DNA from: Bacteroidales bacterium
Lineage (GTDB): Bacteria > Bacteroidota > Bacteroidia > Bacteroidales > Bacteroidaceae
Assembly: GCA_015060905.1 (NCBI GenBank)
Contig: SUXQ01000014.1
Span: forward strand, 1 to 64,000
Reading direction: 5' to 3'
DNA: 64,000 nucleotides
Made by a program: the position numbers and the translations under genes. Of this stretch, positions 43,637-59,676 are shown one piece after another (position 1 is the stretch's first letter; each line of letters begins with the position of its first letter). The notes beneath the pieces are model-generated. The model did not search any database, was not told the DNA's origin, and saw only the letters and a list, made by a program, of their open reading frames with translations.

Positions 43637-44080
43637 ATGAAAGTACTTGTAATTAACGGTCCCAATCTTAATATGCTGGGCCTGCGCGAGCCTGCGCTTT
43701 ACGGTTCGCAGAACTTTGCTGCCTTGCAAGAGTTTATACGCGAGAGTGCCCGCCTGTTGGACGTCGAGGTTGAACTTTTTCAGTCCAACCACGAGGGTGC
43801 CATTGTCGATGCCATTCAAGGGGCTTATGGTCGCATGGACGCGATACTTATAAACCCTGCGGCCTACACTCACACAAGCGTTGCGATACTCGACGCTCTT
43901 AAGGCAGTGGCTCTTCCGACGGTAGAGGTGCATCTTACCGATATTTCCACCCGCGAGGCATTCAGACAATTCTCTTATGTCTCTCTTTATGCCCAACATA
44001 CAATTTGCGGGCAGGGCTTCGAGGGGTACAGGCAGGGCTTGCGCTATTTGAAAGAAAATTATGATACACAAAATAACTAG
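43637..44080 (+). CDS. aroQ: Type II 3-dehydroquinate dehydratase
   Basis: 147 residues, the standard small dodecameric form. Motifs: INGPNLNMLGLREPALYG (with the catalytic Tyr), FQSNHEGAIVDAI, INPAAYTHTSVAILDAL and VEVHLTDISTREAFR, then HTICGQGFEGY with a catalytic His. It forms 3-dehydroshikimate. It is the last gene of the aromatic operon, 6 bases after pheA. The final five codons and the stop form the left part of a 54-base perfect palindrome. Confidence 0.95.
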   Translation: MKVLVINGPNLNMLGLREPALYGSQNFAALQEFIRESARLLDVEVELFQSNHEGAIVDAIQGAYGRMDAILINPAAYTHTSVAILDALKAVALPTVEVHLTDISTREAFRQFSYVSLYAQHTICGQGFEGYRQGLRYLKENYDTQNN

Positions 44081-44116
44081 AGGTTGCTGCAGCAACCTCT
44101 AGTTATTTTGTGTATC
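44063..44116. terminator. 54-bp perfect palindrome at the end of aroQ
   Basis: 27 bases (44063-44089) are followed directly by their exact reverse complement (44090-44116) with no spacer. The centre is GCTGCAGC. The left arm includes the last codons and stop of aroQ. The right arm ends in TATTTTGTGTATC. It can act as a terminator in either direction and is unusually long. Confidence 0.8.
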
Positions 44117-47092: not shown

Positions 47093-48259
47093 ATGGATAA
47101 AGAAACATTAAAGTTCATTGCCGAGCATCGCAACGACGACGTACGCACACTCGCTCTACAAGCGGCGCGCTACCCAAACATAGACATGCGCGAGGTTGTC
47201 ACGCAGGTAGAGGGGTGGCAGCATGCTTGTATAAAGTTACCCGAGTGGGCAGCTGTAGAAGGAATCCTGTATCCGCCGCGCATTTCTATGGAGCAATGCT
47301 CCTCGTCGGCGACGGCCTTGTACAAAGCCTCGCTGATGCAGGGCGATACTTTTGCCGACCTTACAGGGGGCTTCGGCATTGATTGCAGCTACATTTCAAG
47401 GAATTTTACCAAAGCTTTTTATGTGGAACGCAACGAGAATCTTTGCACCGTTGCTGCGCACAATTTTGCACTGTTGGGCTTGCACAATATTGAAGTTATT
47501 AATGGCGACAGTGAGCAACAGTTGCCGACTCTGCCCTTGTGCGACTGGATTTTTCTGGACCCTGCGCGTCGCGACGGAGCCGGGAAAAAGGTGGTTGCCC
47601 TTGCCGACTGCGAGCCGGACGTAGCGGTCTTGCGCACGCAGTTACTGCAAAAGGCGCGCCGAGTGATGGTAAAATGTTCGCCGATGCTCGACGTTACCGC
47701 TGCTTGCCGACAGCTTGGCTGTGTAGCCGATGTTCATGTGGTGGCAGTAAACAACGAATGTAAAGAACTGCTGTTCATCCTTTCCTCCGAAATTCCAGAC
47801 AAGCCTCGCGTACATTGTGTGAATATTCTTGGTGACTCGTCGCAGACATTTTCTTTCCCGATGGGTGATACTCACGAGACAATTTTTGCAAGCGAGGTCG
47901 GCAATTATCTTTACGAGCCTAATGCCGCGATACAAAAGGCCGGTTGCCCCTCGTCGCTTGCTGCGAACTACGGAGTGCATAAACTCCACCGCAACAGCAA
48001 TCTTTATACCTCGCAAATGGCGGTCGAAAATTTCCCGGGGCGTACTTTTTGTGTGACGGGGGTCGGCGGTTTTTCAAAAAACGAGCTTAAGAAATTACTC
48101 GGCGACCTTGAAAAGGCCAACCTTACGGTGCGTAATTTCCCCGAGACGGTGCAACAACTGCGCAAACGCCTTAAACTCTCCGAGGGTGGTGACGTCTATC
48201 TTTTTGCCACCACTCTTGCCGATGGTCGCAAGGTACTTGTAAGGTGCGAGAAGGGGTAG
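47093..48259 (+). CDS. Class I SAM-dependent methyltransferase with THUMP-like C-terminus
   Basis: 388 residues. The SAM site is ADLTGGFGIDCSYISRNF (about 88-105), with VERNE as the acidic end of strand 2, NGDSEQQLP, and the motif IV sequence IFLDPARRDGAGKKV (about 155-169). The C-terminal 100 residues (FCVTGVGGFSKNELKKLL, NLTVRNFPETVQQLRKRLKLSEGGDVYLFAT) match the THUMP-like end of a Bacteroidota family related to trimethylguanosine/RNA methyltransferases. The substrate is probably RNA but unproven. A relic of the 3' end of this gene reappears at 57811-57853. Confidence 0.82.
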   Translation: MDKETLKFIAEHRNDDVRTLALQAARYPNIDMREVVTQVEGWQHACIKLPEWAAVEGILYPPRISMEQCSSSATALYKASLMQGDTFADLTGGFGIDCSYISRNFTKAFYVERNENLCTVAAHNFALLGLHNIEVINGDSEQQLPTLPLCDWIFLDPARRDGAGKKVVALADCEPDVAVLRTQLLQKARRVMVKCSPMLDVTAACRQLGCVADVHVVAVNNECKELLFILSSEIPDKPRVHCVNILGDSSQTFSFPMGDTHETIFASEVGNYLYEPNAAIQKAGCPSSLAANYGVHKLHRNSNLYTSQMAVENFPGRTFCVTGVGGFSKNELKKLLGDLEKANLTVRNFPETVQQLRKRLKLSEGGDVYLFATTLADGRKVLVRCEKG

Positions 48260-48356
48260 AAATTATTCACTTTCATTTTTCTTCCATTGTGTAACTGCAT
48301 TAAAATTTTCTATAAAATAGCATTGTTTTTTTAAAAAAGGAGTATATTTGCAAAAA
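48240..48356 (+). repeat. Flanking direct repeat, left copy
   Basis: This 117-base stretch contains the last codons of the methyltransferase gene, a spacer and the promoter TATATTTG. It is clearly related to 57834-57950: 21 of the first 22 bases match, and the last 34 bases match apart from one extra T. The middle is diverged. Confidence 0.85.
48343..48350 (+). promoter_or_regulatory. Promoter -7 element (TATATTTG) for the BACON lipoprotein
   Basis: TATATTTG stands 44 bases before ATG 48394, preceded by an AAAAAAGGAG stretch that is also present at the right repeat. Confidence 0.6.
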
Positions 48357-48393
48357 ATAAAATTATAAAAAATAATAAAATAAAAAAACAAGT

Positions 48394-49500
48394 ATGAAAA
48401 AATTAAATTTCTTTTATTTGCTGACCTTACTTTTGGTCTTTGCTTCATGTAGCAGCAGTGATGATGATAAATCTGAAACACAGCTCAGCGTTAGTGTGAA
48501 TGATTTAGTATTGGAAGCGGAAAAAGGTAGTTATAGCCCTGTGCCTTTGGTTATAACATCAAGTGATGATTGGTCGATTGTTTCACATGTCGATTGGTTG
48601 GATTTTTCATCAAAAAGCGGAAGCGCAGGAACAGTGACAGTTTCGGTTAGAGCAAAATCTGCAAATGATTCTTCTGTAGAAAGAATCGGCGAATTTGATG
48701 TTGTTGCCGGTGATAAAGTTAAAACAATTGAAGTCAGACAATTCCCGGGCTTGGCAGATGGTTGCGAGGTTCGTCCTACCAATCTTGTTGTTTTGACAGA
48801 TGGAGTAGCTTTCGATTTTAATTTCGGCAAGAAAGTATCATATTACTATTATGGATACATTGATGCAGTAATGGCAGGTAGTATGACAGATGACGAGATT
48901 GCGCAGTATGCACAGGATGAGTTCTATAGATATACACCCGAAGAGGGGGATTTAGGCTATCTTTACGGTCTTGATCCTAATACTGAATATTATTTGGTTA
49001 CATTCGGTTACGACAGCAAGGGTAATAGAGGTGATATGTCTAGGACTTTGGTAAAAACAAAGCCTGTAATTACAAATAGACCTCGCGTTAATATATCTAA
49101 TGTAACTTGCGATGATTACCAGTGGGGCTGGGAGACATCAATGTCAGCTTATACAAGCAAGTATTATATGGCTGTATATAGTGGAATATATGCTGATGAA
49201 TATTCAAAATTTCCCTCTGTTTGGATGGCATGGTATATGAAAAATGAAATAAACAGCGGTGAGCATGAAGCTATTTTACAATCCGATTCATGGTATTTGT
49301 CTCGTGAGTCCAGTGAATATAGCATATATATATGTACATGGGCAGTTGGTGAAAATAACGAGTTTGCTCATCAATTGGATATTTTCTATAACTCACTGTT
49401 AACATATTCGCCTGCTGTAAATAATGAACCCAAAGTTGGAGTCATTTCTAAAGAGAGCGTACGTGAATACATGACAGGTCTTGTATTTATAGAGAAATAA
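48394..49500 (+). CDS. BACON-domain lipoprotein with a C-terminal module shared with a fimbrillin-like protein
   Basis: 368 residues. The lipoprotein signal ends in FASCSSSDDDK, with an acidic run after the Cys that fits surface export. A BACON-like domain spans about 30-118 (LSVSVNDLVLEAEKG, WSIVSHVDWLDFSS, TIEVRQFPG). The rest, from about 131 to the end, is an unrecognised module: VVLTDGVAFDFNF, VSYYYYGYI, FGYDSKGNRG, TLVKTKP, NRPRVNISNVT, AWYMKNEI and WAVGENNEFAHQLD. About half of its residues are the same as in residues 293-541 of the protein encoded at 53571. The gene follows the left flanking repeat. Confidence 0.82.
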   Translation: MKKLNFFYLLTLLLVFASCSSSDDDKSETQLSVSVNDLVLEAEKGSYSPVPLVITSSDDWSIVSHVDWLDFSSKSGSAGTVTVSVRAKSANDSSVERIGEFDVVAGDKVKTIEVRQFPGLADGCEVRPTNLVVLTDGVAFDFNFGKKVSYYYYGYIDAVMAGSMTDDEIAQYAQDEFYRYTPEEGDLGYLYGLDPNTEYYLVTFGYDSKGNRGDMSRTLVKTKPVITNRPRVNISNVTCDDYQWGWETSMSAYTSKYYMAVYSGIYADEYSKFPSVWMAWYMKNEINSGEHEAILQSDSWYLSRESSEYSIYICTWAVGENNEFAHQLDIFYNSLLTYSPAVNNEPKVGVISKESVREYMTGLVFIEK

Positions 49501-49546
49501 TATCGAATTTATATATATATAACACTGTAATTTTATGTAATGTAAC

Positions 49547-51901
49547 ATGAGAATTATCATAACATTATGTCTCTTATTTTCAATAAGCGGTTTTGTGCTC
49601 TCTGCTCCGGCGTATAAAGGAAAAATAAGGGTAAAAACTGATGATGGTAGTGTGTGTATATATATAAAAGGAGATGAAAATTGCAAATTTGCTGTAACCG
49701 AGGATGGTTATACCTTGTTGCAATGTGACGATGGTTGGTATTTTGCCGATAAAGACAATGATGGGAACATTTGTGCATCCCCATACAAACTGTTGCAGCA
49801 GCGTAATGAGGAAACTAATAATTTTCTTAGTCGCATAGGAAAAGGTGTACAGCCGATAGTGCAAAAAATATCAAAAGTAAAAATTAATAACACTGTTTCT
49901 CACGACAATGCTGTCGTGAGAAACAGTGTTATTGGTACACGCAGGGTCCTTGTTGTGCTTATGCAATTTTCTGATAAGAAACTTGTGAAAAATGTAACCG
50001 ATTTTAATGCGTTGTTTAATGAAGAGGGTTACAGTGTGGATGGTGCAACCGGGAGTGTGTACGATTTTTATAAGGCGGCTTCTTATGGGCAATTGACCCT
50101 TGTTGCCGATATTTACGGTCCGTATACCTCGAAGAATCCTATGGCGTACTATGGTGGTAATTCTGCGGTTTCGGGCTCAGATAAAAATCCAAAGGAATTG
50201 TTTGATGAAGCTTTAAGTAATCTTGCAAAAGATGTGGATTTGTCTTTGTATGACAGTAATGGAGATGGATTCATTGATAATCTGCATATAATTTATGCCG
50301 GCTATGGCGAGGAGGCAGGTGCCTCCAGCAAGGCTATATGGGCTCATGAGATGACATTCTCGCCGATAACCGTTCAAGGTGTTAAAATAGACCGATATTC
50401 ATGTTCTCCGGAATTGCGAGGCAATAGTGGAAATGGAATTTCGCGTATAGGTGTATCTTGTCATGAAATAGGACACGCCTTGGGCGCTATGGATTATTAT
50501 GATACAGACTATACAACAAATGGTCAATTTGAAGGGACCGGCGAATGGGATGTGATGGCGCAGGGTTCGTGGAACAACGATGGAATCTCTCCGGCCGACT
50601 TTAATCCGTATGTAAAGGCCTATAATTTTGGTTGGGTGGATGTGAGGATGTTACCCGAGGGTTCATCAATAGTTATTTATCCTTCTTCCGACTCTAATTA
50701 TGTTTATAGGGTTGATACGGATGTTAAAGATGAGTTCTTTCTATTAGAAAACAGGATTAAAAAAGGTATAAATAAAGCTGTTCCGGGCGAGGGGTTGCTT
50801 ATGTATCACATTGATGCAAGTATTGAAACAATAGCTCAGAAAAATATGATAAATGCAGCATTTCCTCAAGCTTGTTATCCTGTATGCGCCTCGGCATCAT
50901 ACGCAAAGCCCGATGAGTCTTCTGTTACGTATGGTAAAATAAATAGTGCCGGATGCCCTTATCCCGGAACGTCCAATAATAGTAGTTTTGGCAAACTTTC
51001 AACTCCGGGTGCGTTTTGTAATAATGGAAAATATAGCGGTATAGAGATAGGTGACATTTCTAAAGAGGATAATAAAATTATTCTTTCTTATTATAGAGAC
51101 GGTGCTATTTCTGATAAAAATGTTGTTTGGAAAGATGATTTTGAGGATATTGACTTTTCTTCATCCTGGACTGTGGAAGGTAGTGGCTCTTGGAGTGTAA
51201 AGAGATTTTTAGGTGGAATAACTTCGAACGAATATCCTAAAATATTAAGCGGGAATAGCTATATGATGTTTTCCCGTTCACAAGATGATAATACAATCGT
51301 TAATCGTATAAATGGAAATTTGGTGTCAAATGGTATAATTTTACCGAATGCTAACCAATGCAATCTTGATTTTTCTTTTTGTAAATATTCGTCAAATGAA
51401 AATGCGGCCGATACATTGACTGTGCGTGTACTCGGAAAGGTTAAAAATGATATATTCGGGAAAGAAAATGAAGATAAGTGGGTAGAAGCTTTTTTCTGTA
51501 AATATGATGCTGCTTTTGAATGGCAAACTGTCTCGATGAAATTGGGCCGTATGTATTCAGAAATACGTATTGTATTGATGGGAAGCATTCAAGTAGGTTC
51601 TTCGCTCTTTATCGATGCTATGAGCATTACCGAAAATAATCCAATTACCGGTATTCTTGAAAATAATATAAAAATATCGGAGAATGATGTTGAAGTGAAT
51701 ATCAGCAATGAGAATTTCGTTTCTATAAATAATCCGTTGAATAGAGACGTAAATGTCGCTATTTACAAAATGAATGGAGAACTTTTACATTCGTCTGTTT
51801 TAAACAGTTTTTCTGCGCAGGAATTCTCTTTGTCTGCGGGTCTGTATATAGTAAAAGCCGGCAATAGGACACAAAAAATAAGAATAGGGTCGGCAAAATA
51901 G
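49547..51901 (+). CDS. Secreted M6 family metalloprotease with type IX sorting tail
   Basis: 784 residues. The signal peptide ends near FVLSAPA. A propeptide (about 20-115) contains FAVTEDGYTLLQCDDGWYFAD. The catalytic domain (about 125-520) has CHEIGHALGAMDYYD with the zinc motif HEIGH at 306-310 and DVMAQGSWNNDGISPADFNPY further on. A beta-sandwich region (about 525-690) comes before the tail (about 705-784: VNVAIYKMNGELLHSSVL, LSAGLYIVKAGN), which is a type A sorting domain. M6 enzymes include immune inhibitor A. A 22-bp perfect inverted repeat (49886-49933) lies within codons 114-129 at the propeptide-catalytic junction. Confidence 0.88.
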   Translation: MRIIITLCLLFSISGFVLSAPAYKGKIRVKTDDGSVCIYIKGDENCKFAVTEDGYTLLQCDDGWYFADKDNDGNICASPYKLLQQRNEETNNFLSRIGKGVQPIVQKISKVKINNTVSHDNAVVRNSVIGTRRVLVVLMQFSDKKLVKNVTDFNALFNEEGYSVDGATGSVYDFYKAASYGQLTLVADIYGPYTSKNPMAYYGGNSAVSGSDKNPKELFDEALSNLAKDVDLSLYDSNGDGFIDNLHIIYAGYGEEAGASSKAIWAHEMTFSPITVQGVKIDRYSCSPELRGNSGNGISRIGVSCHEIGHALGAMDYYDTDYTTNGQFEGTGEWDVMAQGSWNNDGISPADFNPYVKAYNFGWVDVRMLPEGSSIVIYPSSDSNYVYRVDTDVKDEFFLLENRIKKGINKAVPGEGLLMYHIDASIETIAQKNMINAAFPQACYPVCASASYAKPDESSVTYGKINSAGCPYPGTSNNSSFGKLSTPGAFCNNGKYSGIEIGDISKEDNKIILSYYRDGAISDKNVVWKDDFEDIDFSSSWTVEGSGSWSVKRFLGGITSNEYPKILSGNSYMMFSRSQDDNTIVNRINGNLVSNGIILPNANQCNLDFSFCKYSSNENAADTLTVRVLGKVKNDIFGKENEDKWVEAFFCKYDAAFEWQTVSMKLGRMYSEIRIVLMGSIQVGSSLFIDAMSITENNPITGILENNIKISENDVEVNISNENFVSINNPLNRDVNVAIYKMNGELLHSSVLNSFSAQEFSLSAGLYIVKAGNRTQKIRIGSAK
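49886..49933. repeat. 22-bp perfect inverted repeat inside the M6 protease gene
   Basis: AATAACACTGTTTCTCACGACA (split here by its two halves 49886-49896 and 49897-49907) is exactly complementary to 49912-49933, with a 4-base ATGC loop. It is translated in frame as a short Asn/Val/Ser-rich linker. Confidence 0.95.
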
Positions 51902-52006
51902 GTTTAGGAATAATGTAAACTCGGACAAGAATCGTCTTATTTTCTCTATTTTTATAAACTTGATTATCTGTAATTAATTTACGAATTTAAATATATTATA
52001 ATACGT

Positions 52007-53458
52007 ATGAAAAAGTTTTTATTTTTTGCACTCACTTGTGCATTGTTTATTGCGTGCGATAAACAGGACAGTGCAACTTTCAACGAGAAAAATGATTCTG
52101 CTGTGAGTTTTAAAGCTTTTATCAAGCAGACTTCACGTGCAACCGAAACTGCTTTCGAGGATGGCGATGCTATAAGTGTATTTGCCGTTGCACCTACTGC
52201 CCCCACTGTAAGTCTTGAGCCTTCAGGCAATTATGCTGATAATGTTCAGTACATATACAATGGTCGCAGCTTCGATGCGGGTTACAATGCAATCACTGTT
52301 AGTGAAAAAGAAACAGTAGGATTGGCCTATTTTGCAATCTACCCCTATCAATCTGCCGCATCGAATAAATTTACATTTAATGTAAAGAGCGATCAGAGCA
52401 AATATGCCGACTATACTGCCAGCGATCTTTGTACAGCCTACAACGAGCCTACAACCGAAAATGATGTGTTACTGGAGTTTAAACACCGTCTCAGTTGTGT
52501 TGCAGTCAAACTTTATGGCGAAAATCTTGTCAGCAAAAAAATAAGCATAAAATTAAATAATGTGTATACCTCGTGCAACGTAGATATAAATGCAAATACC
52601 TATACAGCCACAGGAACAACGGGAAGTGTGATTATGGGAGAGCAGTCGAACGACACCTATCAAGCAATCATTGCTCCCCAGACAGTCTCTTCGGGCAAGA
52701 CATTCATTTTTTTAACAATTAATGGCAAGGAAACTCCATTGGAATTGGCTGCTGACGTAGAATTTAAATCGGGAAAGAAGGTAACTTACGAAATAGAACT
52801 TGAAGATGACAAAGTAATAGGTCTCAACGGATTTATCGACCCCTGGAACACTGCCGACGACCTTCTTACGACTGTGGTTCCCGAAGAAATATTGGAAAAG
52901 ATAAATGATCACATGCCTTTGTATAATGGCATTAATCCTCCCAGTGTAGAAGGTGCCTATTTATTAGAACCGTTCGCAACAGTCTATTGTGAAGATTATC
53001 CCGTCAGTGGTTATGAACCGGGTCATGTGGTAAATTCAAAAAGAATTTTATTCTCTAATCAGGATGCGAGCAAGAATACTTTGGATTATAATTCTGTGAC
53101 AACATCCGGTTCATGGGAAGAGGGTAAAGGTGCATTTATTTCCGGTTCGGGTGATAATTTTACTGCATTCTTTAACACCGAAGGTGAGTCTTCGGATATT
53201 TATATAAAAACAGCCTTGGTAATTTCCGGTACAAAAACTTCGTCAGGCATTAAGGATTTATATTATGCCTTTGTGATGGTGGAAAAAGGTGACGACCCCG
53301 AGGAAAAATTGATGGACGAGGGTGTGTTCCGTGTATTCAAGGACGAAGATGGAATGAGCATTAACTGCGATTGGGATTGGGACTATAGCAATAATGCTAC
53401 TCGCAGCGTTGCGGAATTGGCAAAAAGCATATATAGCAACTGTGCATATTTTAAATAA
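52007..53458 (+). CDS. Fimbrillin-like (Mfa-like) lipoprotein A, unique C-terminal module
   Basis: 483 residues. The lipoprotein signal ends in FIACDKQD. The fimbrillin-like domain (about 33-285) has VSFKAFIKQ, then SRATETAFEDGDAISVFAV, NVQYIYNGRSF, YFAIYPYQS, LLEFKHRLSCVAVKL, and KSGKKVTYEIEL. This is the Mfa-like 1 pattern of Bacteroidales fimbrial subunits and minor pilins. R44-A45 sits where P. gingivalis FimA and Mfa1 are cleaved (R-A). The C-terminal 180 residues (from about 300) are not shared with the two following paralogues and are not recognised. No clear promoter was found in the 105-base gap upstream. Confidence 0.82.
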   Translation: MKKFLFFALTCALFIACDKQDSATFNEKNDSAVSFKAFIKQTSRATETAFEDGDAISVFAVAPTAPTVSLEPSGNYADNVQYIYNGRSFDAGYNAITVSEKETVGLAYFAIYPYQSAASNKFTFNVKSDQSKYADYTASDLCTAYNEPTTENDVLLEFKHRLSCVAVKLYGENLVSKKISIKLNNVYTSCNVDINANTYTATGTTGSVIMGEQSNDTYQAIIAPQTVSSGKTFIFLTINGKETPLELAADVEFKSGKKVTYEIELEDDKVIGLNGFIDPWNTADDLLTTVVPEEILEKINDHMPLYNGINPPSVEGAYLLEPFATVYCEDYPVSGYEPGHVVNSKRILFSNQDASKNTLDYNSVTTSGSWEEGKGAFISGSGDNFTAFFNTEGESSDIYIKTALVISGTKTSSGIKDLYYAFVMVEKGDDPEEKLMDEGVFRVFKDEDGMSINCDWDWDYSNNATRSVAELAKSIYSNCAYFK

Positions 53459-53491
53459 GCCACAATAGTCACTATAAATAACATTGATATT

Positions 53492-53540
53492 ATTGAATAG
53501 GTCAGAAACAACTTCGCATTTCCGGCCTATTCAATAAAAA
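53492..53540 (+). terminator. Hairpin after fimbrillin-like gene A
   Basis: ATTGAATAGGTCAGAAA (53492-53508) pairs with TTTCCGGCCTATTCAAT (53519-53535) with two mismatches. A weak A/T run follows, so termination may be partial. Confidence 0.55.
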
Positions 53541-53570
53541 TAATTCTATTTACTTATAAAATAAAAGAAC

Positions 53571-55196
53571 ATGAAGAAGAGTCTAATATTCATGCTTTTA
53601 TGTACTTTGTTAGTTGCATGTAATAATGAAGAGGGTCAAACAGTTTACGAGGTTAAAGACAGCTCTCCTGTAAGTTTCAAGGCCTTTATCAAACAAACTA
53701 CACGTGCTACAGAGACGTCTTTCGAGGATGGCGATGCTATCAGTGTATTTGCGGTAGCCCCAACTTCGTCGGGAATAAGCCTTGCGCCCTCCGGCAATTA
53801 TGCAGACAATGTTCAGTATGTATATAATGGTCGCAATTTCTATGCAGGTTACAATGCCGTAACAGTAAGTAACACAGATGCACCGGAATTGGCCTATTTT
53901 GCAATCTATCCCTATCAATCTGCCGCATCGAATAAATTTATATTTAACGTAAAGAACGACCAGCGTAAATATGCCGATTATACAGCCGGCGACCTCTGTA
54001 CTTCATACGTCGAGCCGACAACAGCCGATGAAGTATTATTGGAGTTTAATCATCGAATGAGCTGTATTGCAATAAAATTCCACGGTGACAATCTGGCAAG
54101 TAAAAGCATAGGTGTAAAATTGGACAATGTTTATACATCGTGCAATGTGGATATAAATGCCAGCACTTTTTCTGCCACAGGGGCAACGGGTAGCGTGATT
54201 CTTGGTGAACATTCGACCGACACCTATCAAGCAATCATTGTTCCTCAGGTAGTATCCTCGGAGCAGACATTTATCACCTTGACGCTTGATGGAAATGAAA
54301 TTCCATTGAATCTGGCAGCGCCCGTAGACCTAAAATCGGGCAAGAAAACCACATTCGAGCTTGAAATAAAAGATGATAAAATTATTTCACTCGATGGATA
54401 TATAAATTCATGGAATATGGGCGACGCCGAGGATTGCAAAGTTGTTCCTGTAAACATTGTATCATTGACAGATGGAGTAGCTTTCGATTTTAACTTTGAC
54501 AAAGAAGTATCGTACTACTATTATGGATACATAGCTAAAGAATCAATTGGTAGCGTGACCGATGAAGAGATTGTTGAAGTTGCGCTCGAAAATTTCACAA
54601 GATATACTCCCGAAGATGACCTTTTGGGTTATTTGGCCGGACTTGAGGCAAATTCCGAATATTATGTAATTACATTCGGTTACGACAGCAAAGGAAACAG
54701 AGGGGAAATTATTAAAACATTGGTAAAAACCAAACCCGATGTAACCAACAGACCTCGCGTTACAATATCCAATGTCACATATACTTCCACCGAGTGGAAT
54801 TGGGACACATCAATTTCGTCTGAAACTAAAAAATATTATATGGCAGGAGTGAGCGGGGAATATGCTTCTATGCTGGGTGATACACCAAATATCTTGCTTG
54901 CATGGTATATGAAAAACGAAATAGACAACGGCGAATATACTTCTATCTTAGAACCCGGCTCATGGTGGATGTCTCGTAATTCTACCGATAATGATATCTT
55001 TATATATGCATGGGCTGTCGGCAATGATAATGAATTTGCAGGACAGTTGGATACATTCTATAGCTCGCTAACCGAGAGCGCAGTTCTTACGTTAAACCCC
55101 GAAAAGAAAATGCCCGATGCAAAAGTCGTTTCTAAAGAGCATCTGCATAAATGTATGAAGAATGTTGTAAATATTTTTAAGAATCAGAATTTCTAA
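53571..55196 (+). CDS. Fimbrillin-like lipoprotein B, C-terminal module shared with the BACON lipoprotein
   Basis: 541 residues. The signal ends in LLVACNNEE. The fimbrillin-like domain (34-285) repeats that of protein A closely, including TRATETSFEDGDAISVFAV (R45-A46) and YFAIYPYQSAASNKF. From residue 293 onward the sequence changes to the module found in the BACON lipoprotein at 48394: IVSLTDGVAFDFNF, VSYYYYGYI, FGYDSKGNRG, NRPRVTISNVT, AWYMKNEI and WAVGNDNEFAGQLD. The junction near residue 290 indicates module swapping. It starts after a hairpin and is followed 31 bases later by gene C. Confidence 0.82.
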   Translation: MKKSLIFMLLCTLLVACNNEEGQTVYEVKDSSPVSFKAFIKQTTRATETSFEDGDAISVFAVAPTSSGISLAPSGNYADNVQYVYNGRNFYAGYNAVTVSNTDAPELAYFAIYPYQSAASNKFIFNVKNDQRKYADYTAGDLCTSYVEPTTADEVLLEFNHRMSCIAIKFHGDNLASKSIGVKLDNVYTSCNVDINASTFSATGATGSVILGEHSTDTYQAIIVPQVVSSEQTFITLTLDGNEIPLNLAAPVDLKSGKKTTFELEIKDDKIISLDGYINSWNMGDAEDCKVVPVNIVSLTDGVAFDFNFDKEVSYYYYGYIAKESIGSVTDEEIVEVALENFTRYTPEDDLLGYLAGLEANSEYYVITFGYDSKGNRGEIIKTLVKTKPDVTNRPRVTISNVTYTSTEWNWDTSISSETKKYYMAGVSGEYASMLGDTPNILLAWYMKNEIDNGEYTSILEPGSWWMSRNSTDNDIFIYAWAVGNDNEFAGQLDTFYSSLTESAVLTLNPEKKMPDAKVVSKEHLHKCMKNVVNIFKNQNF

Positions 55197-55227
55197 ACAA
55201 AGAAATTCATCCATAAAAGAAACGAAT

Positions 55228-57741
55228 ATGAAAAAGAATTTATTATTAATGCTCTCCCTCCTTGTTTTTATGGGATGTAGCAGTAAGGATGATAATGGAA
55301 CGGTAGATGAGCCCATTCAAACTCCCTCGTCTGTAAGTTTCAAAGCCTTTATCAAACAAATTTCACGTGCAACCGAGACAGCCTTCGAGGATGGCGATGC
55401 AATCAGCGTGTTTGCTGTAGACCCAAAATCGCCCATAATCTCTCTTGCACCTTCGGGCAACTATGCGAATAATGTCCAGTATATATACAATGGTACCAAT
55501 TTTTCAGCAGGTTCAAATGCAATCACAATCGGCGAAAAAAATACAACAGGGTTGGCTTATTATGCAATGTATCCTTATCAGAGTGATGCAAGCGATTATT
55601 ATAAATTCAATGTAAGGCTTAATCAGACAAAATATACCGACTATACAGCCAGCGACCTCTGTACAGCATACGCCGAGCCTACAACAGCCGATAATGTATT
55701 ATTAGAGTTTAATCACCGTATGAGTTGTATTGTGGTAAAATTTCATGGAGATAATCTTGCCAGCAAAAGAATAGGTGTAAAATTGAACAATATATCTGTT
55801 GCGTGCTATGCGGACATAAACGCCAATACCTATAAAGCCACAGGAGTAAAGAATAATATCACCATGGGCGAGCATTCAAGCAACATTTTTCAAGCAATCA
55901 TTGTTCCCCAAACAATATCTTCCGATCAGAAATTCCTAACTGTGACTCTTGACGGTAAAGAATATCCATTGAACTTACCTTCTAATGTCGAGTTTAAATC
56001 GGGCAAGAAGGCAACCTATGAGTTTGAAATAGAAGATGATAAAATTATTGCACTTAACGGTTATATAACTCCGTGGGATACATACGCCGACATAACCGAG
56101 GCCGAAGGTATTATCGAAGTAACATCGGGCATTGGCGACTACGATGCAGCCTACCTTACAAAATATGGTTTTTTCTGTTACGACAAAAACTTTGGCGACG
56201 GCATTAAAGTAGCAGATAAGCCATATAACTGTATCACCTATATGCCCATCGAGAGTTCCGAACTCTTGAGTCTTATCTCAACAAACACAGACAATATTCC
56301 CTCTCAGTTGATATCAGACAAAGGAATTGTATATTTCAGTTTCCCCAATGATTCTATTCTTGAACTTCTATATGATGATGGAAAGGAGATAAAAATGCTT
56401 GACAGTATTCCTTATTCCAAGAAAGAATTGATAAACGTTTCCTCGGCGTTGGGCGACCCATTCAAAGCCTCTCTCTTCAATGCCTCATCGCTACTTAAAA
56501 AGAACAAGTCGCCAAACTCAATCACCAATTGCTTTGAATTGTTCGAACTAGTAAGCAATGAACCATATGTAGAGAACAAAGAGATTATTGATGGTCTCTC
56601 CAAAGACGAATCAGGAAACTTTAAGTTTGTAGAGACAGTTGCTAAGTGGGACGACGACGAGGTAAAAGACAATGTATGTAACACACTCTCACTATGGACA
56701 GGCAAGGCTACATACAAAGTCGGTGGTTCGTCGTGTACCCTCAGTGGAACAATCTTCTGCACCTCGGATGCATACAACACTTATGGTACTTACGGAATCA
56801 TCTGCGACAGTGACCTTTCTAAATTGTCGGTAGGAAACGCCGAATACGAAGGAACAGGTTATCAATCAAAGACCGACCTAAGCTATGGTGTTGATTTTCG
56901 TGGCCTGAAGCCAAATACAACATATTATTACAAAGCATTTTACAAGTTCAATAGCAGCGATCATGGAGGCCTTGTTCCAAAGTACGGAAGCCCCACAGAC
57001 CAGATAATATACGACACTACCGTAAAATCGTTTACTACAGGCGACAACAACCTTACAGTCGATGTAGTAATGTGTATAGACGTTACAGGAAGCATGTCCG
57101 ACATTATAAATACAGTAAAGAGCAATGCCATAGCTTTTTATGACCTATTCAAAAATTCTTGTGAAGAAGAAGGTATTCAACTTACAGGACTTAATTCTCA
57201 AGTAATTGCGTATCGCGACAAGAATGTAGATGGAAGTAATTGGATAGAAAAGAGTACAACCTATTCTCTACCTGCGCAAAAAACAGAATTCAAAAGTTTT
57301 GTAAACGCATTATATGCAAATGGTGGTGGCGACTATGCCGAGAGTGGTCTTGAAGCATTGAATATGGCATTTGATAAGGCCGATTGGGGCGTTGACGACG
57401 GTTACCATCGTCAGGTTATAATTTTGTGGACAGACGCTCCATATTTGGTGGGCTCTCATTACACCGACCTTACTACTGATGCTATAAAAACCAAATGGAA
57501 TAAAATGCCTTCGGGGCGTCGTCTTATTCTGTTTGCGCCATATGACACTAGCAGTAACGGTGGCGATTGGGGCTTGTTCGATGATTGGACAAATGTAATA
57601 CACGAGTCTGACCTTGATAAAGGCTTTAATAACTTTGAATACATTCTAAAATCTATTATTGGTGAGCTTACAAGCAAAGCTCCCGCTCGCAAGCCTAGAG
57701 CCTCTGTTTACAAAAAGACTAACTTCCGTCCCAATAATTGA
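55228..57741 (+). CDS. Fimbrillin-like lipoprotein C with C-terminal von Willebrand A domain
   Basis: 837 residues. The signal ends in VFMGCSSKDD, a good surface-export pattern. The fimbrillin-like domain (about 36-290) has SRATETAFEDGDAISVFAV (R47-A48) and YYAMYPYQS. A middle part (about 300-600) includes GTGYQSKTDLSYGVDFRGLKPNTTYYYKAFYKF, which resembles a fibronectin III-like linker. The end (about 610-820) is a von Willebrand A domain: DVVMCIDVTGSMSD with the metal-site D618-x-T-G-S, YRDKNVDG, and VIILWTDAPY. P. gingivalis Mfa5, a fimbrial tip protein, has a comparable vWA region. A Lys/Arg-rich C-terminus ends the protein. A strong terminator follows. Confidence 0.84.
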   Translation: MKKNLLLMLSLLVFMGCSSKDDNGTVDEPIQTPSSVSFKAFIKQISRATETAFEDGDAISVFAVDPKSPIISLAPSGNYANNVQYIYNGTNFSAGSNAITIGEKNTTGLAYYAMYPYQSDASDYYKFNVRLNQTKYTDYTASDLCTAYAEPTTADNVLLEFNHRMSCIVVKFHGDNLASKRIGVKLNNISVACYADINANTYKATGVKNNITMGEHSSNIFQAIIVPQTISSDQKFLTVTLDGKEYPLNLPSNVEFKSGKKATYEFEIEDDKIIALNGYITPWDTYADITEAEGIIEVTSGIGDYDAAYLTKYGFFCYDKNFGDGIKVADKPYNCITYMPIESSELLSLISTNTDNIPSQLISDKGIVYFSFPNDSILELLYDDGKEIKMLDSIPYSKKELINVSSALGDPFKASLFNASSLLKKNKSPNSITNCFELFELVSNEPYVENKEIIDGLSKDESGNFKFVETVAKWDDDEVKDNVCNTLSLWTGKATYKVGGSSCTLSGTIFCTSDAYNTYGTYGIICDSDLSKLSVGNAEYEGTGYQSKTDLSYGVDFRGLKPNTTYYYKAFYKFNSSDHGGLVPKYGSPTDQIIYDTTVKSFTTGDNNLTVDVVMCIDVTGSMSDIINTVKSNAIAFYDLFKNSCEEEGIQLTGLNSQVIAYRDKNVDGSNWIEKSTTYSLPAQKTEFKSFVNALYANGGGDYAESGLEALNMAFDKADWGVDDGYHRQVIILWTDAPYLVGSHYTDLTTDAIKTKWNKMPSGRRLILFAPYDTSSNGGDWGLFDDWTNVIHESDLDKGFNNFEYILKSIIGELTSKAPARKPRASVYKKTNFRPNN

Positions 57742-57760
57742 AAATAGGCAATTATGCAAT

Positions 57761-57798
57761 AAAAAATCGTCGCACATTGATTGATGCGACGATTTTTT
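57761..57798 (+). terminator. Terminator after fimbrillin-like gene C
   Basis: AAAAAATCGTCGCA (57761-57774) pairs exactly with TGCGACGATTTTTT (57785-57798), with a 10-base loop. It lies 19 bases after the stop. Confidence 0.9.
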
Positions 57799-57810
57799 AT
57801 TACTCTTTTT

Positions 57811-57853
57811 TCCACTATTCTTGCCGGTGACCATAAGGTGCAAGAAGGGGTAG
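57811..57853 (+). pseudogene. Relic of the 3' end of the methyltransferase gene (47093-48259)
   Basis: The last codons read ...RCKKG-stop in the same frame as RCEKG-stop of the intact gene, and CTTGCCG upstream also aligns. About nine bases are missing in between. It belongs to the right flanking repeat. Confidence 0.75.
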
Positions 57854-57950
57854 AAACTTTTCACTTCATTTCCCTATCATGGCAATTGAATTTAAAAATA
57901 TCCTATAATATAATATTGTTTTTTTTAAAAAAGGAGTATATTTGCAAAAA
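57834..57950 (+). repeat. Flanking direct repeat, right copy
   Basis: Related to 48240-48356. It carries the same end-of-gene relic, an AAAAAAGGAG stretch and the TATATTTG promoter, in the same orientation, 9.6 kb away. Confidence 0.85.
57937..57944 (+). promoter_or_regulatory. Promoter -7 element (TATATTTG) for the propeller protein gene
   Basis: TATATTTG lies 65 bases before ATG 58009 and is the counterpart of 48343-48350 in the left repeat. Confidence 0.6.
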
Positions 57951-58008
57951 TAAAATTAAAATATATTAGAAGTTGTTTAATTTTTATTGAAAAATATTTT
58001 TAACACGC

Positions 58009-58992
58009 ATGAAAGGAAAAATTTTATTTATAGTATTATCTTTATTATTTGTCTTACAGAACACTTTCGCGCAAAAGGTTGATTATTCGGTAGTATCTGT
58101 ACCCGAAGAGACGGGAATTGATTTTTTGCAAGTTTCTACAGCGAACGATTATGTTTGTATGCCGATAGTTAAACGTAAAGGAGCAAATATAAATTGGGCG
58201 ACCAATCAAGTGCTGGATATTTCGCCCGACGGTATTAACCTTGCTTATTTGTCGTGGAGAAACAATACAAGTAATATTTTTATAAAAGCATTGGATAAGC
58301 AGGGAAGTTCGGTTCAGCGTACCAATCGTGCCGCAGTTATGGATTTTTCTTATTCTCCCGATGGCAAATTTATCTGTTTTTCGGAACGACGCGGAAAAAC
58401 CACTCAGATTTTCCAGACAAGTGCCGATAAAGGTTATGTTTGCCGTCAGATAACAAGCGGTAACAACGATTATTCTCCCGTATATTCTCCGGATATGTCA
58501 CAGATAGTATTTGCCCGTCAAGAGGCTAAGAGCATCGGCATTTGGAGTTATAATATTAAAAATAATTTCCTGTCAAGCTATATGTCAGGCATGAATCCCT
58601 GTTATACAAAAGAGGGAAACAATATTATTTGTGCGCGTACCAATAATGAGGGACGTAGTGAAATATGGAGAGTGAATTACGAGAAAGGAACCGAGGAGTG
58701 TATCGTTTCCGACTTAGAGCGCAGTTTCGCCTCGCCTCGTATATCTCCCAACGGAAAGTGGATATTGCTTGTTGGCAGCAGCAAGATAGTAACAGACAAA
58801 TTTACATATTCGAATACTGATATTTACGCTGTAAGAATAGATGGTACCGAGCTTACACAGCTCACTTACCATGCAGCAGATGACCTTAGCCCGGCGTGGA
58901 GCAAGGATGGCAAATATATTTATTTTGTTTCTCAGCGTGGAAGCAAAGATGCTACAGCCAACATTTGGAGAATGACTTTTAATCAATTTTAG
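58009..58992 (+). CDS. TolB-like beta-propeller protein (PD40 repeats), secreted
   Basis: 327 residues with a signal peptide (hydrophobic 5-17, cleavage near TFAQK). Five or six PD40-type blades are visible: SPDGINLAYLSW, SPDGKFICFSER, SPDMSQIVFAR, SPNGKWILLVG and SKDGKYIYFVSQR. Each carries the Ser-Pro/Lys-Asp-Gly turn of TolB and prolyl oligopeptidase propellers. No catalytic domain is attached, so a binding role at the cell envelope is likely. The gene has its own copy of the repeat-borne promoter, and the barrel gene begins 21 bases after it. Confidence 0.78.
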   Translation: MKGKILFIVLSLLFVLQNTFAQKVDYSVVSVPEETGIDFLQVSTANDYVCMPIVKRKGANINWATNQVLDISPDGINLAYLSWRNNTSNIFIKALDKQGSSVQRTNRAAVMDFSYSPDGKFICFSERRGKTTQIFQTSADKGYVCRQITSGNNDYSPVYSPDMSQIVFARQEAKSIGIWSYNIKNNFLSSYMSGMNPCYTKEGNNIICARTNNEGRSEIWRVNYEKGTEECIVSDLERSFASPRISPNGKWILLVGSSKIVTDKFTYSNTDIYAVRIDGTELTQLTYHAADDLSPAWSKDGKYIYFVSQRGSKDATANIWRMTFNQF

Positions 58993-59013
58993 TACTAATA
59001 AAATCAGTTTATT

Positions 59014-59676
59014 ATGAAAAACTTTAGAATCTTGTTTGCTGCGTGCTTGTTAGCTATGGCCACAGCTGTTAATGCTCAGTTTGCAAATTCATCTTCTACA
59101 TCTTCTTTTGGTGGCGGTGCTGCTGATACAGAGGGTTGGCAGAGTGTAAAATTCTCTTATAATCGTTATACAGCCGAAATTGATGGTCCTGATTGCGATG
59201 CGGTGTCTGCTTTTGAGCTTGGCTATTCAAAAGCAATCTCTCTTTCTCAGGAACTTCCTTTATTCCTTGAGGCTGGCGCAAGTTTCTTTTATGCAACAGG
59301 TGAATGTTATGACGAGGATTATTACAAAGGCTCTATCAGCATGGCGTCATTGATTGTGCCTTTTAATCTTGGTTACAAAGTAGCTTTGTCCGATAATATG
59401 TCATTGTTCCCCTATGTAGGTCTTTCTCTTAAGGGACACCTTTTCGGAGAGATTGAGGAGGAAAATGAATATTATGATGAAACTTATACAATTAATGTTT
59501 TTGATGATGATGACTTGGAAGATCCTTGGAACCGTTTCCAGATTGGTTGGCAGATTGGTGCTACTTTGAATATTAATAAGTATAATGTAGGTCTTAGTTA
59601 CGGAACAGATATAACAGAGCTGGGCGAGGATATGGACACAAAAACATTCAAACTCTCTCTGGGTGTAAACTTCTAA
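59014..59676 (+). CDS. Outer-membrane beta-barrel protein
   Basis: 220 residues with a signal peptide ending in AVNAQ. The mature part has a short Ser/Gly-rich start, then alternating strands (SVKFSYNRYTAEI, FELGYSKAISL, PLFLEAGASFFYA, VPFNLGYKVAL, LFPYVGLSLKGH, FQIGWQIGATLNI, NVGLSYGTDI) and a terminal FKLSLGVNF with the C-terminal aromatic residue expected for barrel assembly. The size fits an eight-strand OmpX/OmpA-type barrel. It probably shares a transcript with the propeller gene 21 bases upstream. The function is unknown. Confidence 0.8.
   Translation: MKNFRILFAACLLAMATAVNAQFANSSSTSSFGGGAADTEGWQSVKFSYNRYTAEIDGPDCDAVSAFELGYSKAISLSQELPLFLEAGASFFYATGECYDEDYYKGSISMASLIVPFNLGYKVALSDNMSLFPYVGLSLKGHLFGEIEEENEYYDETYTINVFDDDDLEDPWNRFQIGWQIGATLNINKYNVGLSYGTDITELGEDMDTKTFKLSLGVNF

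Follow-up and report, generated by a model that had tools for sequence, protein, structure and literature searches.

Tandem surface lipoproteins with a related fimbrillin-like base and three different heads in a Bacteroidales genome

Type V pilins (FimA/Mfa; PF13149) are exported as lipoproteins and then matured by gingipains, and genes bearing a von Willebrand A (VWA) domain occur in fimbrial loci, namely Mfa5 and a P. endodontalis locus (both from an excerpt of PMC11316588). BACON and DUF1735 domains have been proposed, in an excerpt of PMC11216935, to be N-terminal membrane-bound spacers with many C-termini, and a lipoprotein combining Mfa2 and Fib_succ_major is a diversity-generating retroelement target according to an excerpt of PMC4159848. 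Here, we analyse three adjacent genes, A, B and C, of Bacteroidales bacterium GCA_015060905.1 (Bacteroidaceae), contained in positions 1 to 64,000 of contig SUXQ01000014.1; this whole stretch of 64,000 nt is hereafter the window. Each gene joins a fimbrillin-like N-terminal module (N-module, or base) to a different C-terminal part (head or tail). We read the products as base-plus-head surface lipoproteins copied within this lineage, which may act as strand acceptors, cut at Arg44, on a type V pilus presenting three heads, and give this reading a rough probability of 0.45.

A, B and C share with type V pilins the domain family, the predicted fold, the lipobox and a basic residue that follows the first strand, but they are pilin-like only in the N-terminal base of larger proteins; unlike in type V pilus loci, neither an anchor (FimB/Mfa2) nor a plain shaft fimbrillin is encoded among the seven proteins scanned at 48394-59676, and any cleavage or polymerisation of A, B and C is putative. 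Like the BACON/DUF1735 spacers, as these are presented in the excerpt of PMC11216935, the base is an N-terminal beta-sandwich following a lipoprotein signal and has exchangeable C-termini, and BACON itself bears the B head in the window and in three other loci. The base nevertheless belongs to another domain family and has a basic residue at a cleavage-like position, and no SusC or SusD is present among the same seven proteins. The Mfa2/Fib_succ_major lipoprotein also combines a fimbrillin-type N-part with an unrelated C-terminal display domain, but its C-terminus is thought, in the excerpted text, to be varied by targeted mutagenesis, whereas in A, B and C whole modules differ between neighbours. 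Stand-alone VWA lipoproteins of five genomes (G056, G177, G230, G218 and G124) resemble the C tail and lack the fimbrillin-like base. Among the open-licence papers listed in literature searches, no title or abstract opening describes the base-plus-three-heads arrangement.

A fimbrillin-like base and three heads

The host genome assembly comprises 2.54 Mb in 31 contigs (completeness 87.5%); family-wide scans covered 399 genomes and genus-wide scans 44 genomes, host included, with one genome per species. Labels of the form G, L and C plus a number denote genomes compared, loci fetched and contigs, respectively. The three genes are divided as follows:

52007..52849, + strand: A, fimbrillin-like N-module (lipobox C17, R44-A45); PF13149 4.1e-40
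52850..53458, + strand: A, head module A_C; module found in at least 30 loci among genome contigs
53571..54416, + strand: B, fimbrillin-like N-module; PF13149 1.7e-37; sister of the A N-module, 97/95
54417..55196, + strand: B, head module B_C; paralogue of the BACON lipoprotein module, 57% identity
55228..56079, + strand: C, fimbrillin-like N-module; PF13149 3e-38; clade with A and B, 99/94
56080..57741, + strand: C tail, a linker region with weak FN3-like matches, then the VWA domain; VWA_4 5.7e-8

The original prediction of three adjacent lipoproteins sharing a fimbrillin-like N-terminal domain was borne out: all three open reading frames carry Mfa_like_1 (PF13149), at residues 43-280 of A, 44-281 of B and 46-283 of C, with bit scores of 138.8, 130.2 and 132.7 against a curated cut-off of 27, and a lipobox-like Cys17 is recognizable by eye in each. 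Identity in BLASTP is 67% over 297 residues for A/B, 59% over 309 for A/C and 62% over 284 for B/C (E <=6.3e-117, which rules out chance similarity), and the N-modules (residues 1 to ~282) are 62-69% identical in the alignment used for the tree. Alignment of both ends, as had been proposed, confirmed homologous N-modules and unrelated tails, with similarity stopping at the domain border: in blocks of 40 residues, identity is 0.45-0.82 as far as residue ~280, then falls to 0.23-0.38.

Predicted structure agrees with sequence in arguing that the N-termini are not unrelated folds. The best of five AlphaFold2 models of A, built from 26 alignment rows, has a pLDDT (predicted local distance difference test) of 82.6 (65.7-82.6 across models) and a predicted template modelling score of 0.55; it has a first strand at residues 34-39, drops below pLDDT 50 at 41-44 and leads through a low-confidence linker at 275-284 into a distinct, mainly beta C-terminal part. 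Among the 50 of 566 Foldseek matches listed, whose rows hold no aligned ranges, the best are the Bacteroides pilins 4k4k, 3ufi and 4eps (E 3.4e-14 to 7.4e-11; for 4k4k, E 3.4e-14 and a template modelling score of 0.66 by target), with Mfa2, Mfa3 and Mfa4 weaker (E 1.4e-5 to 2.7e-3). Judged by target sizes, we take these as matches of the N-module, which is accordingly predicted to adopt the two-domain pilin beta-sandwich fold; no significant match among those 50 is assignable to the A head.

Within the host genome, A, B and C are the sole matches to A at E <=0.001. Three weaker PF13149 matches lie elsewhere, one on contig C23 and two on C28; the latter belong to a gene cluster that also encodes matches to DUF5119 and DUF3575, along with sub-cut-off matches to DUF4906 and a ricin-type lectin. 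The N-module is present at E <=1e-10 in 6 of the 44 genus genomes, host included, and a relative of A at E <=1e-15 in 43 of the 399 family genomes, again with the host. The same three gene forms are not a constant of the group: across the 44 genus genomes, only G015 has close A-type genes, and neither the B nor the C head was found on N-module proteins of the other five genomes that have the N-module.

The A tail is, as originally predicted, a module without an assignment. As part of full-length A, residues 282-483 had no match in Pfam at E <=1; scanned alone, they gave only Hexapep_loop (0.22, under cut-off), with no NCBIfam match at E <=0.1 and no PDB profile match at E <=1 nor at E <=10. 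Full-length A-type proteins occur in seven other genomes from six genera, with only the best candidates per genome scored, and the head itself was found in 32 proteins from at least 30 loci by scanning genome contigs with two peptide patterns; near-duplicates among these are L144 to L146, L153/L154 and L132/L136 (one species). Its N-terminal partner is the fimbrillin-like module in 11 of the 32 proteins (two with shortened starts), DUF4988 in nine (eight by Pfam, and L154 by start and length, being equal to L153), Peptidase_C10 in three, and BACON and Big_2 in one each; five are stand-alone lipoproteins (two scanned against Pfam, three judged by length), and of the remaining two, one has no Pfam match and the other a sub-cut-off N-glycanase_C match overlying A_C itself. 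The A head is thus carried by at least five kinds of N-terminus, and a recent local swap as the origin of all three genes is ruled out, the A form being widespread. In the three C10 proteins (L139 398-4879, L152 4695-8600 and L148 118-3936), which also have LRR_5, A_C is C-terminal, and those of L139 and L152 additionally match dockerin below cut-off and carry a Spi inhibitor domain. Weak matches to the PNGase F C-terminal domain were seen in 3 of 28 aligned A_C modules (best 7.7e-5; noted for L149 5998-6954). Because such matches are few and weak, with no PDB profile match and no such entry among the 50 of 566 Foldseek matches listed, a jelly roll like that of the PNGase F C-terminus is only a lead for A_C.

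The B head is, as had been noted, shared with the BACON lipoprotein encoded at 48394: residues 284-537 of B and 119-368 of the latter are 56% identical (BLASTP, 8e-94) and 70% identical in DNA, the BACON gene lying three genes upstream of B. In a separate alignment, which left out one L103 protein and four genomes without context, the two heads are 57% identical, versus 19-30% to 12 other relatives; the top local identity of the B head to any other family genome is 35%. B_C is present at E <=1e-5 in 12 of the 399 family genomes, host included. Seven further loci were fetched with context (L098-L104), and in three of them (L098, L099 and L104) the N-part is BACON by Pfam. In L101, one of four proteins was scanned against Pfam and showed no known base; L102 has one protein with BACON behind rather than before the head and another without a Pfam match; the proteins of L100 and L103 were not part of that scan. 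The fimbrillin-module profile matched no B_C protein in the seven loci nor the partial proteins of the four remaining genomes. One L102 gene (10281-11882), which adjoins another B-head gene and a C10 protease, has a B-type head after an N-domain that is fimbrillin-like by eye, yet without a Pfam or N-module-profile match. Against PDB profiles, B_C gave one weak FN3-like match (0.0097), and its structural model is poor (pLDDT 63.1). Scanning genome contigs with full-length B, where the window's own or near records may be excluded, gave no result, as did a plasmid scan.

The predicted VWA domain at the end of C was recovered (VWA_4, 5.7e-8) in a tail of ~550 residues with weak FN3-like matches in the linker region; a DVTGS motif at residue 618 is presumably metal-site-like. 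Ten of the 399 family genomes, host included, hold the C tail at E <=1e-10. In the five genomes named above, it forms a complete protein of 595-651 residues, 40-49% identical over the matched tail, with VWA and, by eye, a lipobox; the remaining four matches are partial.

Copying or homogenisation of the base and exchange of modules

In a maximum-likelihood tree of 25 N-modules, those of A, B and C form one clade (99/94), within which A pairs with B (97/95). Two A genes of G015 fall outside this clade, with 100/100 for all five. The N-module of A is 69% identical to that of B and 63% to that of C, versus 45% and 53% to the G015 genes. As the three N-modules are closer to one another than to those of G015, while the A heads of the window and G015 are 58-64% identical, the comparison indicates copying of the base within this lineage, or its homogenisation there by gene conversion. 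The nearest known kin of both halves of B lie within the same 9.4 kb, so B looks like a chimera of its two neighbours. Among everything collected, the window alone combines the base with the B head or with the C tail; of the three genes, B and C alone have the look of local inventions.

Other genomes offer parallels. Two sister bases of G024 (100/100) carry, respectively, a SusD-like part and a different tail; at L039 7928-10180, a fimbrillin-like base is fused to a SusD-family protein. G239 encodes, beside A, a 626-residue protein in which the base precedes a repeat tail (GLUG-like by eye, no Pfam match). In the tree, the A modules of G239 and of G283 group together (99/96), leaving the repeat form outside; because they pair across species, this base duplication predates the split of these two species. 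Overall, the tails found on the N-module comprise A_C, B_C, the VWA tail, SusD, and LRR plus M64.

The proposal that module swapping shaped the locus is therefore sound in that exchange is real, but exchange is not limited to heads, runs both ways and leaves the A form as something not local. Bases are exchanged as much as heads, given that the A head stands on DUF4988, BACON, Big_2, C10 or nothing, the B head on BACON and the C tail on nothing. Likewise, the idea of one platform with exchangeable display modules survives as regards homologous N-modules, separable tails and exchange, but the N-module is not a constant platform. In the scheme that best accommodates these comparisons, the fimbrillin-like base would have undergone tandem duplication, or been kept uniform by gene conversion, and come to precede three heads: the old partner A_C, a copy of the BACON-lipoprotein head (giving B) and a tail that is elsewhere a stand-alone VWA lipoprotein (giving C). 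The comparison supports this origin; the order of events is our inference.

Gene run, flanking repeats and genomic site

The following features surround A, B and C, the names pckA, argD and aroQ used below being assigned by eye from translations:

47093..48259, + strand: methyltransferase-like gene; PG_1098 ferredoxin-like and THUMP-like domains by Pfam; 3' end is the left direct repeat
48199..48380, + strand: left direct repeat (methyltransferase 3' end, stop, promoter region); local alignment score 145; spacing to right copy 9594
48328..48351, + strand: 24-nt exact repeat with promoter-like element TAnnTTTG; two exact matches in the window
48394..49500, + strand: BACON lipoprotein; BACON 9.6e-6, barely above cut-off; residues 119-368 are the B-type head
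49547..51901, + strand: M6 metalloprotease with HEIGH motif and type IX secretion system (T9SS) sorting tail; TIGR03296 1.6e-59, TIGR04183 1.4e-5
57804..57971, + strand: right direct repeat (decayed methyltransferase 3' end and promoter), by DNA alignment to the left copy
58009..58992, + strand: TolB-like beta-propeller protein behind the second promoter copy; PD40 4.7e-26
59014..59676, + strand: outer-membrane beta-barrel protein; OMP_b-brl 8.2e-13

With all genes on the + strand and gaps of 46, 105, 112 and 31 bases, the BACON lipoprotein, the M6 protease, A (52007-53458), B (53571-55196) and C (55228-57741) are taken as one putative operon. The A/B gap holds an imperfect inverted repeat (53475-53552; 34-nt arms, 79%), perhaps a terminator or mRNA-processing hairpin.

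The genes from the BACON lipoprotein to C sit between decayed direct repeats of the methyltransferase 3' end and its promoter. The two copies align with a local score of 145, versus at most 41 in 414 control stretches from both strands of the window, and the 24-nt string, in which we take the TAnnTTTG consensus to be a promoter-like element, has two exact matches and no other at <=3 mismatches in the window, with 0 expected. The closest congeners by argD, G028 (97%) and G013 (96%), share the pckA-methyltransferase-argD surroundings. The genes from the BACON lipoprotein to the outer-membrane protein were not found at that site in either genome by tblastn; both hold a different cassette there, 80-82% identical in DNA between them, with a DUF4252 gene recognized by Pfam in G028 and a sigma factor recognized by Pfam in G013. 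Beyond its sigma-factor cassette, G013 has a second methyltransferase 3' end of ~160 bp (L031 3352-3510; 95%). A protein search, to which the decayed copy of the window is invisible although it is detectable by DNA, revealed an extra partial copy in G013 only of the 44 genus genomes, as well as two full copies in G022 and a single fragment in G039. The two full methyltransferase copies of G022 are accompanied by two of an argD-like gene (contigs C20, C52, C81 and C89), perhaps reflecting a mixed bin.

Since the flanking repeats, the different cassette of G028 and G013 and the second 3'-end copy of G013 all fit it, we favour cassette exchange by recombination at the methyltransferase 3' end as the probable origin of this arrangement. 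A mobile element was also considered in view of the flanking repeats, but ARAGORN detected no tRNA in the window, and no integrase match was seen among the eight proteins scanned at 47093-59676. Elsewhere in the window, a perfect 27-nt inverted repeat without spacer (44063-44116) lies between an aroQ-like gene and the next gene.

Pilus acceptor, membrane spacer or protease partner

Residue 44 is basic in all 37 N-modules aligned, fused and plain (Arg in 36, Lys in one), and C17 is invariant; the table includes near-identical species and leaves out the A proteins of L133 and L151, which have shortened starts. In the model of A, R44 comes after the strand at 34-39, inside the stretch of pLDDT under 50. 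Because the lipobox and a basic residue beyond the first strand are retained in the bases, A, B and C would be exported as lipoproteins, the base would be cut after Arg44 by an Arg-specific protease, and the cut bases would then sit at the end of a type V pilus as strand acceptors, one pilus system presenting three heads. In type V pilins, cleavage after such an Arg removes the first strand and opens a groove for the next subunit, and it is because pilin maturation removes this strand that we narrowly prefer the strand-acceptor role. As for the C-terminal donor strand of shaft polymerisation, what comes after the N-module in all three proteins is a head and not a free C-terminus. The heads, we weakly infer, probably bind a protein or glycan outside the cell, close to the secreted M6 protease from the same gene run. 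In favour of this reading, the host genome has the further PF13149 cluster on C28 and encodes a clostripain-family (C11) protein, a candidate processing enzyme.

Several observations weigh against this reading. Duplication of the base is indistinguishable from gene conversion, and the G239/G283 bases diverged before the species did, so copying is not always recent. The locus has no anchor or shaft gene among the proteins scanned, and BACON, DUF4988 and Big_2 bases bear the same A head. A gingipain-type processing enzyme was sought and rejected, the only C25 match of the host genome being the T9SS sortase PorU. R44 may be kept for structure, as F50 and D54 are equally conserved (0.97) and P113, Q130, H160 and Q225, which are invariant, exceed it; moreover, A45 is only 81% conserved, and the 37 rows are not independent of one another.

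The foremost alternative, a serious contender although somewhat short of an even chance, is that the fimbrillin-like module is a mere membrane-bound spacer raising the head off the outer membrane, as proposed for BACON and DUF1735, with the same swapping but with neither cleavage nor pilus. It would explain why the A head also stands on DUF4988, BACON, Big_2 and bare lipoproteins and why the scanned proteins lack a pilus partner, and it accords with the acidic residues after the lipobox Cys in B, C and the BACON lipoprotein (less clear in A), an export-signal motif according to an excerpt of PMC5080379. The N-parts of the three proteins match neither BACON nor DUF1735 but PF13149, and the constancy of basic residue 44 speaks against a plain spacer, though its neighbours are equally conserved. 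The originally suggested likeness to fimbrial tip proteins is thus possible, but the seven locus proteins scanned include neither an anchor nor a shaft, and the data accord almost equally with a membrane spacer.

The lipoproteins might instead be partners of secreted proteases (tether, cofactor, inhibitor or substrate catcher) and not adhesins, which would be compatible with either display mechanism; we consider this unlikely. The M6 protease within the gene run suggested it. Neighbours were sought with one representative each of M6, M64 and C10, on contigs some of which hold one to three genes. The 30 A_C loci have C10 in the same protein in three cases, M64 within two genes in three (two being one species), C10 farther off in one and none of the three proteases in 23; in the seven B_C loci besides the window, the head gene lies beside M6 in two and beside C10 in three, a link in 5/7, with none in two. 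These are raw counts without a background rate, and 0/5 complete bare C-tail loci have M6, M64 or C10. Base modules are also fused to M64 homologues in G022, G026 and G032: such proteins, of ~1150 residues, form tandem triplets in G022 and G032 and are single in G026 (L041 7581-18101, L042 4897-15236 and L040 6928-10440), adjoining ~290-residue fimbrillin-like proteins, and one of them has LRR_5 and Peptidase_M64 by Pfam. Finally, a mere run of unrelated common-fold surface lipoproteins, with no exchange and no shared role, is very improbable, for although PF13149-type proteins are as widespread as the 43 genomes above indicate, the 59-69% identity is confined to the N-module, the N-modules form a single within-locus clade and the heads sit on other bases elsewhere.

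Taken together, the locus looks like an assembly site of surface proteins from interchangeable parts. It lets one read how Bacteroidales may construct novel surface proteins, with the likely parents of the chimera B still beside it, and brings to light A_C, a well-conserved head module absent from the libraries searched and found on many different stalks. More doubtful is the bolder proposition that a pilus-acceptor base was copied in place onto resident lipoprotein heads, yielding combinatorial pilus-end heads, with A_C an undescribed family on at least five bases, secreted C10 proteases included; if true, new tip types would arise by grafting the base onto heads, not by head mutation. If Arg44 is cut, pilin-type strand exchange might mount diverse heads, enzymes included, on the cell surface.

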